From: Terrimicrobiaceae bacterium | Lineage (GTDB): Bacteria; Verrucomicrobiota; Verrucomicrobiia; Chthoniobacterales; Terrimicrobiaceae | NCBI GenBank assembly: GCA_018402345.1 | Contig: JAGYIV010000010.1 | Coordinates: 186,001 to 250,000, forward strand | DNA length: 64,000 nt | Direction of reading: 5' to 3' | In this document: positions 27,115-32,166 of the stretch, one piece after another | Position numbering within the stretch: the first letter of the stretch is position 1 | Layout: each line of letters starts with the position of its first letter | Made by a program: the position numbers and the translations under genes | Notes under the pieces: model-generated | What the model saw: the letters and a program-made list of their open reading frames with translations, nothing else | Databases searched by the model: none | What the model was told of the DNA's origin: nothing

Positions 27115-28356
27115 ATGGGGTCCAAGCGCGCCATCCTTCTGGTCATGGACTCCTTCGGCATCGGCGCCGCTCCAGATGCCAGACATTTCAGACAGGGCGC
27201 CGGGACGGATGTCGGCGCGGACACGCTTGGCCACATTGCGGAGGCGTTTATGAACGGCTCGGCAACCTCTCCCGCCCGCCCGCTCCATCTCCCCCACCTT
27301 TGCTCGCTCGGCCTGGGACAAGCGGCCCGCCTTGCCCGCGGGCGCGACATCGACGGCTGGGACACCCCCGTGCCCCTTCTTGGCTCCCACGCCTGCGCCG
27401 CACCTGTTGGCACCGGCAAAGACACGCCGAGTGGCCATTGGGAACTCGCCGGCGTGCCGGTTGATTTCAATTGGAGCTATTTCCCCGAGCAACCGGATTG
27501 TTTTCCGGGAGCGTTGCTGGATGACATTTTCCATCGCTGGGGCACCTCAGGATCCCTCGGAAATTGCCATGCCTCGGGCACAACCATCATCGAATCCCTC
27601 GGAGCCGAACACCTCCTCACCGGGTTGCCGATTTTTTACACCTCGGCCGACAGCGTGTTCCAAGTCGCCTGCCACGAGGAGGCCTTCGGCTTGGATCGCT
27701 TGATCGCCCTCTGCAAAACCGTTCGCGAGTCTCTCGATAACAGCCCATGGCGTGTCGGCAGGGTCATCGCCCGTCCGTTTTCCGGCGGACCAGCGGGTCC
27801 CTTTCGACGCACATCGAACCGCAAAGATTTTGCCGTTCCACCACCCGCCCCTACCTTGCTGGACAATGTCTCCTCCGCGGGCCGGGACGTGGTCGCGATC
27901 GGGAAAACAGGTGACATTTTCGCGCATCGCGGCACCACCGTGGAAATCCGCGCCTCCGGACACCACGCCATCATGGAACAAACACTCCTCGCCCTCGAGA
28001 CATGCGGAGATGGTGGACTTATTGTCACAAATTTCGTGGATTTCGATGCCGTCTTCGGTCACCGCCGCGACATCGCGGGCTACGGCCTCGCTCTGGAGGA
28101 ATTTGACGCAATGCTTCCATCACTGTTCCAGTCACTCCGTCAGGGCGATCTCCTTTGCATCACCGCGGACCACGGGAACGACCCCTCCATGCATGGAAGT
28201 GACCACACTCGTGAGTTCGTGCCTGTTCTTTTTTACGGCCCCGATTTTGCCAAAGGCATCGACTTCGGCGTTCGCCACACGTTTGCAGATGTCGGTCAGT
28301 CGCTGGCCCGTTGGTTGGATATCCCGCCAGTGCCAACTGGTGTGGCGATGTTTTGA
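27115..28356 (+). CDS. deoB: phosphopentomutase
   Basis: DeoB converts (deoxy)ribose 1-phosphate to the 5-phosphate. This 413-residue alkaline-phosphatase-superfamily protein has 'LLVMDSFGIGAAPDA' at its start, 'VGTGKDTPSGHWELAG' (catalytic Thr region), 'GKTGDIFAHRG', and the metal-binding 'ITADHGNDPSMHGSDHTRE'. All conserved metal ligands appear present. It forms an operon with deoA. The 3' end overlaps the convergent nuclease gene by 61 bases. Confidence 0.93.
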   Translation: MGSKRAILLVMDSFGIGAAPDARHFRQGAGTDVGADTLGHIAEAFMNGSATSPARPLHLPHLCSLGLGQAARLARGRDIDGWDTPVPLLGSHACAAPVGTGKDTPSGHWELAGVPVDFNWSYFPEQPDCFPGALLDDIFHRWGTSGSLGNCHASGTTIIESLGAEHLLTGLPIFYTSADSVFQVACHEEAFGLDRLIALCKTVRESLDNSPWRVGRVIARPFSGGPAGPFRRTSNRKDFAVPPPAPTLLDNVSSAGRDVVAIGKTGDIFAHRGTTVEIRASGHHAIMEQTLLALETCGDGGLIVTNFVDFDAVFGHRRDIAGYGLALEEFDAMLPSLFQSLRQGDLLCITADHGNDPSMHGSDHTREFVPVLFYGPDFAKGIDFGVRHTFADVGQSLARWLDIPPVPTGVAMF

Positions 28357-29237
28357 CGCTCGGCCTCGTCGAACCGGAGGTGCGTCGAGATCCGCTCCAA
28401 CACCCCATCACTGATTCCCTTGACCTTCCGAAGATCGTCGGCCGTGAGGAACGCCCCCACGTCGCGCTCCTCGATGATGCGCCCCGCGAGAACAGGCCCG
28501 ATCCCCGGAAGGGTTTCGAGAATCGACGCCGAGGCGGTGTTCGGATCGACACCTGCGGCGGGAGGGCTTTTTCCCATAAGGGCGGCGAGTTCGTGCGCCT
28601 CGTCCCGCTCCAATGCCCTGTCGGCGGCGAGCTTGGACCAGTCGGTCTTCGCCCAAGCCCCGCGACGCGAACCGGCCGCCACCAACTCAAAGTCGGCAAG
28701 GCGTTGACGGTATTCCTCGCCTGGTGTCCCGTCGGCACGGCTGCGAACGACCCCGAAGGCCCTCGCCAACCCCTCTCCGACCAGCACCGAACCCAAATCC
28801 CTCCCGTCCTGCAATGTCACATACCCATAGACCCTCTGTGACATCCCAGAGCCGCGAGCATCCGTGAAGGATGTCTCCACAGAGAACGGTTCTGCCAGCA
28901 ATGAAGCGGTCCGGATCGCCGCCTCGACACCGAGCATTCGCGCGGTCTCCCCCGAATCGATTCCATCCCCCGCTTCGATCCCGAAATACCTTCGCTGGGC
29001 GCGCAACCGCCTGGCGAGTGTTTCGTTGGCCGCAGCCGTCTCGATGCAATCCACCCCATACAAACGCACTGTCACCTCGCGTCCGTCGGGCAACCTCACA
29101 GGAAAACTGTCGCCATCAGCCCACTCGCTGGAAACAAACCGGCAACCCTGAAAAACCTCAACGCCCGATTCCGCGAAAACAAACCGTGGCATTGCGATCA
29201 ATACCACGCCGAGGAGGGAATAGATGAATGCGTTCAC
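28296..29237 (-). CDS. secreted staphylococcal-nuclease-like protein with C-terminal helix-hairpin-helix domain
   Basis: The 313-residue protein has a signal peptide (about residues 1-22), then a thermonuclease (SNase) domain with 'DGDSF', 'VRLYGVDCIET' and 'LVGEGLARAF', matching the Asp, Arg and Glu catalytic region of SNases. The C-terminus is a ComEA-like helix-hairpin-helix: 'DPNTASASILETLPGIGPVL' and 'LRKVKGISDGVLERI'. It probably binds and cuts DNA outside the cytoplasm. The GTG start at 29237 overlaps the stop of the upstream gene (GTGA), so it is the third gene of a coupled operon with two Deg-type proteins. The 3' end overlaps convergent deoB. Confidence 0.8.
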   Translation of the reverse strand: MNAFIYSLLGVVLIAMPRFVFAESGVEVFQGCRFVSSEWADGDSFPVRLPDGREVTVRLYGVDCIETAAANETLARRLRAQRRYFGIEAGDGIDSGETARMLGVEAAIRTASLLAEPFSVETSFTDARGSGMSQRVYGYVTLQDGRDLGSVLVGEGLARAFGVVRSRADGTPGEEYRQRLADFELVAAGSRRGAWAKTDWSKLAADRALERDEAHELAALMGKSPPAAGVDPNTASASILETLPGIGPVLAGRIIEERDVGAFLTADDLRKVKGISDGVLERISTHLRFDEAERQNIATPVGTGGISNQRASD

Positions 29238-30727
29238 AACCGTTGCAAGGCTGGCAACCCGTATTGCTCCATCAACTCCGCGTTGGAGTCCTGGACAGCC
29301 TGGGAATCGAGGAAAATCGTCTTCGGATCCTCCTCGAAGTCGATCCTCTGAAATCCATTTCCGGGCTGCCCGGCGGCGGCGGCGAGATCCTCGAGGCTCT
29401 TGATCTCCCGCCCATTCACCCGGGACACCACGAGGTTTTCCAAATGCTCGTAGCCGATGGTCCGCGGGGACGGCAGGACCTGCGATAAAATCACGATCCT
29501 CCCGCGATCCGCGGGCATCTCGTCCTGAAAGGCATCCAAATACACCAACCGCTGGGGAGCCTTCTCTCGCCAGTTCCCTCCCCACTCGCGAAGGTAATCG
29601 CGCGAAAGTTCCAGAAACACGAGACCGCCAAGCACCACATATTTGGGCGGCTTCCCGCCGCTGTAAGTCGCGCTGGGCCTTTTCCCATCATCCGGCACCT
29701 CGGTGCGCACACTCAGCGTCATCGCCTTGCGGTCCCGAAAAATCCGCACATCGCACTCATCGCCGGGGTGCTTGCGCGTATTTGTAAGATGGCTGAAGAG
29801 AATTTTCCCAAAGTCAGGGTCGTTGTAGTTTCCATCCTCGTCCAACTCCATTCCGTCCACCGCCAGAATCACATCCCCCTTGCGCACTCCGCCTTTGCTC
29901 GCAGAACTGTCCGGTGCGACCTGCGTGACATAGATGCCGCCTGCGTTCTCCAGTCCCAGATAACGACGAAATTGGGGATCTCGCAGCGACGAAAAAGAAA
30001 CACCGAGTCGCGCAAACCCGCGATAGGTCCCGCCATCGGCCTCCTTCAGGAAATGTGCGATCACCGGCGGCGGGATCACCTCGGAGGTCTGGTTGCGGCT
30101 GTCATAGCGCATCAGAACTCCGCAAAGGGCACCGTTCCGAACCACCGGAAGCGTGAAGCTCCAGTCGCGCTGCTGCAGGGGCGCGGAGAATTTGAAGACA
30201 AGCAACCCGAGGTTCATGAAGGGATATCCTCCGATCGTCACGGAGGTGATGCGACCAGTTGTTTTGGCTAACTCACCGTTCGGTTCGACCTGCACGACTG
30301 TGGCCTCGTCGCCGTTGGCCGCCGTGGCATCGAGCCGAAGCGGTATCATGCCCTCGAGGAACGCGGGATCGAGCGGACGCAACAACGCCAAGTTGCAATC
30401 AAAGTCGACCAACTCGATCGCAGCAGTCACCTTCCCGGGAGCATCGGCTTTTTCGAGTTCGATCAAATTCGCGTTTTCGATCAAATCGGCCGTCACAAGA
30501 ATCCGCCCGCCCTCGATCAACGCTCCGACACCTCGCCGGTTCTCAGGTTCCTTTTTCACCCACGGCTGAAAAAAATCATAGGCCTGGTTGGTCGAGCTGA
30601 TGCGAAGGATCGAGTGTCGCAGACCGTTGGCTGCGGAATCCCCAGACACCGCAGGCTCGATGGCGACGGCGGGAACCGCAGCGATCATCATGGCGATGAG
30701 AGTCGGGAAAAGTCGTGGAATGTTCAT
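29234..30727 (-). CDS. catalytically dead Deg/HtrA-like paralogue with PDZ domain
   Basis: This 497-residue exported protein (signal peptide about residues 1-23) has the overall trypsin-fold plus PDZ layout of its upstream neighbour but lacks the triad. The His position is Asp81 ('ILVTADLIENANL' against 'IMTNAHVVGNARF'), the Asp position is Asn112 ('DCNLALL' against 'DCDLALL'), and the Ser position is Phe191 (no GNSGG). A PDZ region follows with 'GGIYVTQVAPDSSASKGGV' and 'GDVILAVDGMELDEDG', then a C-terminal region also shared with the neighbour. It is coupled to that neighbour by an ATGA overlap (30724-30727) and to the nuclease by GTGA. A regulatory, scaffold or substrate-binding role is inferred. 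Confidence 0.78.
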   Translation of the reverse strand: MNIPRLFPTLIAMMIAAVPAVAIEPAVSGDSAANGLRHSILRISSTNQAYDFFQPWVKKEPENRRGVGALIEGGRILVTADLIENANLIELEKADAPGKVTAAIELVDFDCNLALLRPLDPAFLEGMIPLRLDATAANGDEATVVQVEPNGELAKTTGRITSVTIGGYPFMNLGLLVFKFSAPLQQRDWSFTLPVVRNGALCGVLMRYDSRNQTSEVIPPPVIAHFLKEADGGTYRGFARLGVSFSSLRDPQFRRYLGLENAGGIYVTQVAPDSSASKGGVRKGDVILAVDGMELDEDGNYNDPDFGKILFSHLTNTRKHPGDECDVRIFRDRKAMTLSVRTEVPDDGKRPSATYSGGKPPKYVVLGGLVFLELSRDYLREWGGNWREKAPQRLVYLDAFQDEMPADRGRIVILSQVLPSPRTIGYEHLENLVVSRVNGREIKSLEDLAAAAGQPGNGFQRIDFEEDPKTIFLDSQAVQDSNAELMEQYGLPALQRL

Positions 30728-32166
30728 TTTTCGAGATTTTGCTCCGAGGTGACTCCATAGCGCTCAAGGATGCGGGGACGGGCCTCTTCAACAAGATTGC
30801 TCTCGAGCACGATCGGCCGCTGGTCCCCGAGAAGCGAAATCACATGATAGTCGACTGGTTTAGCAAACGCCGCCGCGACATCCTCAATCGAGCGGATGCG
30901 CTCCCCGTTGATCGACTCGACCGGTGAGTGAAGGAACTCGCCGGCATAGCTGTTCACCGGATCAGGCAGGATGCTTCCGATCACAACAGGTTCCTTCATG
31001 GCCTCGTGAATGCCGTCCTCGACAAAATAGTCGAAGAGGTAGTTCAGTCGCTGGTTGTCGGGATCGTGCGCCTCCATGAAATTCCAGTCGACCGGCTGAA
31101 ACACCAGCCCGCCAAACACCACAAAGCGCGGTTTTTCATCGTAGGCGCTGGCCTGCAGCGTGAACGGCCAGGGCGAGTGGAGCGGCACGACCAGGGTCTT
31201 TCTCTTCCCCCCGCGAAGAACCTCCAACACAACCGAGTCGCCCTTGAATTTCCGCTCCACCACCTCGGTCAGCGGCACGGGCCCGTTTGCATCGATCGGA
31301 ATCGTGCCGTCACTCGAAATATCGAGCCCGTCGATCTTCAACAGCACATCTCCCGGCTCGACCACACCGTCAGAGGATCCCGTGGCGTAAACGCTCGAGA
31401 CCACCACGCCACGATTGTCGTCCGCCAAGCCCAGAGCCTTGCGCGCGGCGGGGTTGAATAACGACTCGTAGGTCAAAGCCAAGTCCACATACCTGTCATA
31501 CCTCCCGTCCTCGACATCCTTCAAAAACCTGTCGACCACCGGTGTCGGAATCATGTAGCCGACATTCTGCGCGACATCGCCGCGGAACCCCTGAAATGCA
31601 ACCCCCACCACCTTGCCGGCCTGCATCACCGGCCCGCCGCTGTTCCCGGGATTGATCGCCGCATCGATCTGCACGGCCAGGTGCGAGTCCAACCCGGAGT
31701 GCGTATACGTCTGGAAATCGATCCGCGACACAATCCCCCGGGTTACCGATAGGCGGGTTCCGCCGATCGGGTATCCGTAGACCGAAACCATCGACTCGAT
31801 CGCGGGAATCCCGCCGAACTCGAGCGGGGACGTTCCTGAAAAAAACTCCTCGCGCTCGACCTCGAGCAGCGCCAAGTCGCAATCATGCGCGACATGCGCC
31901 ACCCGTGCGATCCATGGCTGGGGATCGCCTTCCTTCGATACGGTCAAAAACCTCGCATTTCCCACCACATGGGCATTTGTCATGATCCGCTTCCCCGGGA
32001 TCACGAATCCCGTCCCCGCGCCGGAAATGACATCCCCCGGATTCCATGGCGTGTTGTAATTCGGCTCCATCGAGGTTGCCTCGATTCTCACCAAGCTTTC
32101 TCCAATGCGGGAGGCCTGAACCCCCGTGACGAAGAAGAGAATCCCAAAAAACAGGATGCGGAACAT
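30724..32166 (-). CDS. Deg/HtrA-type periplasmic serine protease with PDZ domain
   Basis: The 480-residue trypsin-like protease has a signal peptide (about residues 1-18) and an intact triad: His66 in 'IMTNAHVVGNA', Asp97 in 'HDCDLALLEVE', Ser176 in 'INPGNSGGPV'. A PDZ domain follows ('VYATGSSDGVVEPGDVLLKI') and then a C-terminal module with a second PDZ-like motif ('VESINGERIRSIEDVAAAF'). The architecture resembles Deg proteases with a long C-terminal extension. It is the first gene of a three-gene minus-strand operon, ahead of its inactive paralogue and a secreted nuclease. The promoter should lie in the 102 bases shared with divergent pheA. Confidence 0.85.
   Translation of the reverse strand: MFRILFFGILFFVTGVQASRIGESLVRIEATSMEPNYNTPWNPGDVISGAGTGFVIPGKRIMTNAHVVGNARFLTVSKEGDPQPWIARVAHVAHDCDLALLEVEREEFFSGTSPLEFGGIPAIESMVSVYGYPIGGTRLSVTRGIVSRIDFQTYTHSGLDSHLAVQIDAAINPGNSGGPVMQAGKVVGVAFQGFRGDVAQNVGYMIPTPVVDRFLKDVEDGRYDRYVDLALTYESLFNPAARKALGLADDNRGVVVSSVYATGSSDGVVEPGDVLLKIDGLDISSDGTIPIDANGPVPLTEVVERKFKGDSVVLEVLRGGKRKTLVVPLHSPWPFTLQASAYDEKPRFVVFGGLVFQPVDWNFMEAHDPDNQRLNYLFDYFVEDGIHEAMKEPVVIGSILPDPVNSYAGEFLHSPVESINGERIRSIEDVAAAFAKPVDYHVISLLGDQRPIVLESNLVEEARPRILERYGVTSEQNLEK

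Follow-up and report, generated by a model that had tools for sequence, protein, structure and literature searches.

Proteases of the HtrA/Deg family are textbook homo-oligomers, and the plant proteins Deg2 and Deg9 are, unlike the pair presented below, active intracellular enzymes beside which we know of no dedicated dead twin gene. Several described systems come close to this pair. In magnetotactic bacteria, the active HtrA protein MamE is accompanied by an inactive paralogue, MamO, that is needed non-catalytically (PMC4794232), and Arabidopsis Deg5 and Deg8 are two different Deg proteins forming what a 2016 review termed the only known Deg hetero-oligomer (PMC4877387). In plant Deg7-type proteins, a Deg unit that is potentially active is joined to a degenerate one, with four PDZ domains (PMC3473262), and ClpP/ClpR combine catalytic and non-catalytic paralogues in one protease core (PMC7966870). 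Here we describe a locus of a Terrimicrobiaceae bacterium (Verrucomicrobiota) in which three open frames on the minus strand of a 64,000-nucleotide stretch (contig JAGYIV010000010.1, positions 186,001 to 250,000; hereafter the window) encode, in this order, a Deg protease, a Deg paralogue and an SNase-HhH nuclease. The first two genes form a Deg/pseudo-Deg pair that is real, ancient and apparently undescribed, and its second protein probably serves a Deg cage as a dedicated pseudoprotease subunit or as a regulator.

The protease gene (window positions 30724–32166; 480 amino acids) overlaps the paralogue gene (29234–30727; 497 amino acids) in an ATGA at 30724–30727, and the paralogue gene overlaps the nuclease gene (28296–29237; 313 amino acids, GTG start) in a GTGA at 29234–29237. 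Frames, strand, lengths and both overlaps are those of the coupled three-gene arrangement put forward in an original prediction made from the sequence of the window. All three proteins start with a signal-peptide-like N-terminus as read by eye and are presumably exported.

Pfam recognizes Trypsin_2, PDZ and PDZ_3 domains in the first protein and the latter two in the second. The degenerate trypsin domain of the second protein has diverged too far for Pfam and is evident in the predicted structure. The C-terminal PDZ_3 module (PF17815), which marks the Deg2/Deg9 subgroup, scores 76.4 bits in the protease and 106.8 bits in its paralogue (cut-off 22.8), and none of the three proteins of the locus matches an NCBIfam model over its curated cut-off. 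The two Deg proteins share 28% identity over 473 aligned columns (E 1e-46), and both have the trypsin-like domain followed by PDZ that characterizes Deg/HtrA proteins. Their nearest solved structures are those of plant Deg2 and Deg9 (PDB 4fln, 5il9 and 5ilb), which carry trypsin domain, PDZ and PDZ_3 in identical order and are matched over the whole length (phmmer against Deg2/Deg9: E 2.5e-79 for the first protein, on Deg2 4fln, and 1.5e-47 for the second). Single-chain AlphaFold2 models reach a predicted local distance difference test score (pLDDT) of 92.3 for the first and 92.7 for the second protein. In VIA-align, the first model superposes on Deg2 4fln with a Z score of 41.0 and a root-mean-square deviation (rmsd) of 1.9 over 453 aligned residues, and the second on a Deg2/Deg9 chimera, Deg9 and Deg2 with Z scores of 40.2, 39.9 and 39.2 (rmsd 2.3–2.6, 452–455 aligned), in agreement with Foldseek. 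Because these matches span the whole length, the second protein is predicted to retain the whole fold, even the trypsin barrel missed by Pfam, so that the shared layout up to the C-terminal module, with fold and PDZ kept, holds as originally proposed.

What sets the two proteins apart is the catalytic site. The first carries the Deg/HtrA triad of His66 (codon at 31969–31971), Asp97 (31876–31878) and Ser176 within GNSGG (31639–31641), and the second has Asp81 in place of the histidine (30485–30487), Asn112 in place of the aspartate (30392–30394) and a remodelled former nucleophile loop at Trp189-Ser190-Phe191 (30155–30163). We aligned relatives of both types in 187 rows, obtained from 207 hits after near-duplicates and envelopes of fewer than 250 residues had been dropped and with the family loci L066–L081, copies of genomes already included, left out; 95 rows are of the first type and 92 of the second, one of the latter being a fragment that lacks the catalytic columns. 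The triad is complete in all 95 first-type proteins, each residue being invariant, and in none of the 91 readable second-type proteins, which never retain more than one of its three residues. This is in keeping with the intact triad predicted for the first protein, and a competent triad in the second was likewise not found in any of these 91. In alignments of 65 sequences (A3 and A4; 64 of the 85 pairs introduced below plus the window), the former histidine column of the second type mostly holds glutamate (28), aspartate (17) or glutamine (8) and histidine only once, the former aspartate column is asparagine in 58, and the former nucleophile loop has an aromatic residue at 191 in 51 and a serine at 190 in 41. 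The original prediction had all three triad residues lost from the second protein. Loss of the histidine, the aspartate and the GNSGG loop stands; that of the serine is less clean, since the residue opposite it depends on the alignment (Phe191 in the original prediction and in the 187-row alignment, Trp189 in a HMMER alignment to Deg9) and Ser190, kept in 41 of the 65 relatives, lies between the two. Judged by these residues, the second protein is a homologue and not an enzyme of the Deg/HtrA family.

It could be argued that the second protein still cleaves peptides in another way, for example with Ser190, which sits beside the old nucleophile position, and the acidic residue at 81 (glutamate or aspartate in 45 of 65 sequences). 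However, histidine at 81 in a single sequence, asparagine for the aspartate in 58 of 65 and the missing GNSGG loop speak against this, and the candidate residues are not retained in deeper lineages even though the pair is; on residue conservation we judge catalysis by Ser190 very improbable. The former nucleophile loop itself (residues 187–194, window 30146–30169) has a conserved QxRxxSFTxP-like motif in this order, with an aromatic residue at 191, which may either plug the old pocket or form a new site for binding.

A second line of evidence comes from the way in which Deg2 assembles, for which we drew on PMC4877387, PMC4350169 and PMC3913781. The resting hexamer of Deg2 arises from two trimers that dock through the second PDZ domain, which is filled by an internal ligand (PMC4877387); a table gives this ligand as YIIVAG (PMC3913781). 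Both window proteins have this Deg2-like motif at the start of PDZ_3, where FVVFGG and YVVLGG align with the Deg2 ligand: FVVFGGLVF at residues 348–356 of the protease (31099–31125) and YVVLGGLVF at residues 363–371 of the pseudoprotease (29615–29641). In the 65-row alignments of either type, every sequence has an aromatic residue at the first position of the six-residue stretch and a glycine at its last. Among all nine-residue windows ranked by conservation, the one that starts at this aromatic residue comes 9th of 489 in the dead copy and 132nd of 472 in the active one. Because the motif is thus among the best-kept segments of the dead copy, we infer that assembly is what this copy has been retained for, its active twin being the most straightforward partner.

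The pattern of constraint along the two proteins differs mainly in the protease domain. Mean identity over 65 sequences is 0.61 for the trypsin domain of the active copy and 0.36 for that of the dead copy, compared with 0.42 and 0.36 for PDZ and 0.39 and 0.38 for PDZ_3, from which it follows that the catalytic constraint on the dead copy has gone and that on its PDZ domains has remained. Across the 30 closest comparisons, the ratio of nonsynonymous to synonymous substitution rates (dN/dS) is 0.04–0.14 for the dead gene and 0.02–0.10 for the active gene; the dead copy is under purifying selection. A decaying duplicate held in place by linkage to a needed neighbour might explain the faster divergence of the protease domain and a frame split in one metagenome-assembled genome (MAG; G017), but these dN/dS values reject a pseudogene, the full-length fold is predicted with confidence, and the gene is retained across many genera and also in genomes in which the two genes lie apart, so that a relic is hardly credible. 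In the split case (locus L028, G017:C178), the pseudoprotease frame is broken into 376 and 143 amino acids between intact neighbours, perhaps by a sequencing error. With everything intact except its cutting site, the dead copy therefore looks like a partner or regulator of the live protease.

In an unrooted tree of 130 rows, active and dead copies are split by a single branch with a support of 100 in the Shimodaira–Hasegawa-like approximate likelihood ratio test (SH-aLRT), and, judged by eye, the branching of many sub-clades on one side matches that on the other. For the most diverged clade, the one far clade tested, the approximately unbiased test rejected a tree that joins its active and dead copies, as a duplication of its own would demand (p-AU 7.8e-6). 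The partners form long branches and the trees are unrooted, and we therefore claim no exact date for the duplication, nor an age compared with that of the partner-less proteases. Catalysis would have been lost long ago, and the dead copy is ancient and recurs through the order and in other lineages of the phylum.

The Deg/pseudo-Deg pair occurs in 25 of the 26 genomes of the family (the exception being 71% complete), and its conservation far beyond the genus argues against a chance arrangement. Of 197 genomes of the order, 178 have a PF17815 match, as do 89 of 240 genomes sampled across the phylum and none of 14 control genomes; by our own table counts, two or more copies are present in 168 and 57 of these genomes, respectively. 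The 43 named loci come from Spartobacteria, Chthoniobacterales, Terrimicrobiaceae and other Verrucomicrobia, except for one under the label Proteobacteria, probably a MAG with a wrong label. After setting aside duplicates and the single-member loci (L095, L107, L124–L127, L139, L144–L147 and L150), 85 non-redundant pairs remain, and the protease gene comes first in every one of them. If the candidate start codon closest to the upstream stop is used, the genes overlap by 4 nt in 33 pairs, by 1 nt in 13 and otherwise in 4, are spaced by 0–30 nt in 30 and lie further apart in 5, which makes 80 of 85 overlapping or at most 30 nt apart. When the neighbours of all 85 loci were clustered, the only genes common to every locus were those of the pair itself, so that adjacency has outlived the reshuffling of the surroundings. 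These clusters give no pointer to a functional context; several of the larger ones are overlapping frames of the pair, and the few genuine neighbours, picked out by eye, are a sugar transferase, an aconitase-family enzyme and a HAD-type enzyme. Both genes are also kept where they lie apart, on different contigs in G028 (L150) and G406 (L124/L125) and about 2.6 kb from each other in G071. We did not count G060 and G371 as separated, because their members, on different contigs, are close to contig ends.

Taken together, the locus would be a translationally coupled module of two genes, of which the first encodes an active Deg2/Deg9-type protease for export and the second a protein of the same architecture that has lost catalysis and been retained as a dedicated non-catalytic partner. 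Most likely, this partner would form a complex with the active protease via the conserved PDZ/PDZ_3 locking surface, perhaps with one trimer facing another by analogy to the two paired trimers of Deg2, and would control how the cage rests, captures substrates or becomes active. A hetero-oligomer of the two Deg proteins is thus plausible and the reading that we prefer, while their physical assembly, regulation and substrates are inferred. Several points weigh against it. The predicted structures are of single chains, and the Deg2-like motif could serve a homo-oligomer of each protein. MamO, the closest studied case, activates MamE, and no physical contact between the two was detectable (PMC4794232). 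The choice of the nearest start codon biases junction spacing towards short values, but spacing measured to a conserved codon (median 193 nt) gives the same picture. Finally, several lineages have a PDZ_3 protease for which no partner was found (e.g., G206, G315, G274 and G314), and the protease can therefore work alone. Partner-less PDZ_3 proteases with intact triads in other lineages of the phylum (L126, L127, L146 and L147) could serve as controls for the effect of the partner, and genome G331 has, beside the pair (L134, G331:C11), a further PDZ_3 protease that belongs to another branch, has an intact triad and lacks a partner (L145, G331:C23).

Some room is left for a partner that is co-expressed with the protease and never enters its oligomer. 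Built on a trypsin-PDZ frame, it would act independently as a holdase, a scaffold or a binder of ligands and might, for example, feed substrates to the protease. MamO, whose contact with MamE went undetected, acts via two non-catalytic routes (PMC4794232), and Deg/HtrA pseudoproteases without known partners are on record in plants and cyanobacteria (PMC3473262 and PMC4877387). In addition, the former active-site region of the second protein is itself conserved in this order (ADLVAN/AELVAN, DxNLA and QxRxxSFTxP), as if it bound a ligand. Nevertheless, adjacency of the two genes is almost fixed, they are co-retained in the loci examined, and the assembly motif ranks among the best-kept segments, for which reasons we hold an independent partner to be rather unlikely and favour a subunit or regulator of the Deg cage.

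The third gene has a different history. Its product matches SNase with 25.6 bits (cut-off 21) as well as HhH in Pfam, and the residues that we take to be catalytic (Arg, Asp and Glu, assigned from S. aureus nuclease positions) are kept in all 15 loci compared, within RLYG[VA]DCIE and as the arginine of R[VAFI]Y. In all 15 loci of the genus with readable downstream sequence, two of which have no start codon near the upstream stop, the nuclease gene comes after the pair; it does so in none of nine loci from the other genera of the family. Within the genus the link is genuine, because other genes of the window, presumably deoB, deoA and pheA by our reading, are absent from all 22 related loci checked. 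A protease/pseudoprotease/nuclease machine degrading envelope or extracellular macromolecules, as originally suggested, would fit this adjacency, the absence of deoB, deoA and pheA from the other loci and the signal-peptide-like starts of all three proteins. However, orthologues of the nuclease are encoded elsewhere in the genome in G004 and G005 and about 6 kb from the pair on the same contig in G001, none was found at threshold in G006 and G008–G010, and the zero of nine loci in other genera rejects such a machine as a general feature, which leaves it decidedly improbable. The conserved order envisaged across verrucomicrobial genomes thus recurs, with its coupling, for the pair, and with the nuclease in the genus only, where that gene would have joined as a third member and is a lineage-specific, optional addition. 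Orthologues at loci L043, L044 and L053 lie off the pair (G005 and G004) or in a genome in which no pair was found (G003). At its 3' end, the nuclease gene of the window shares 61 bases (28296–28356) with that of a convergent frame (27115–28356) that we take to encode phosphopentomutase.

The pair has the hallmark of MamE/MamO, an active and an inactive HtrA paralogue encoded together, and by analogy would work most like MamE/MamO and ClpP/ClpR; it may also be a hetero-oligomer in the manner of Deg5/Deg8. It differs from each of its precedents. MamO has a TauE-like transporter domain, a metal-binding role and a separate origin; Pfam finds no TauE-like C-terminal domain in the window pseudoprotease, whose model ends in PDZ_3, and with this different architecture and the full PDZ/PDZ_3 layout kept it is not a MamO. 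Deg5 and Deg8 have at most one PDZ domain, with triad residues in both proteins (PMC3640471), the units of Deg7-type proteins are fused in one chain and eukaryotic, and ClpP/ClpR have an unrelated fold, work with AAA+ chaperone partners and are not envelope proteins. Our literature search returned no description of this pair, which is no proof of absence as most subscription journals lie outside its coverage; a text search of one HtrA review gave no passage on hetero-oligomers (PMC11642142), and another paper has Verrucomicrobia in one table row only (PMC6411480). The statement that no system of this make-up is described therefore seems right for the pair itself and too broad for its principle, for which MamE/MamO, Deg5/Deg8 and ClpP/ClpR are precedents (PMC4794232, PMC4877387 and PMC7966870).

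More specifically, though more tentatively, active and dead Deg2/9-type subunits may together build a mixed protease cage of the envelope, in which, for example, a trimer of the one kind is locked face to face with a trimer of the other. Vertical descent and coupled translation would have preserved this cage in many verrucomicrobial lineages. If true, this would be a ClpP/ClpR-like solution that arose independently in the HtrA family. Envelope quality control in Verrucomicrobiota is little studied, and because the two genes are coupled and read in the same direction, co-expression and knock-outs are straightforward to test. If live and dead subunits have been paired since ancient times and throughout the phylum, they would offer a natural system for learning how inactive subunits tune a self-compartmentalising protease.

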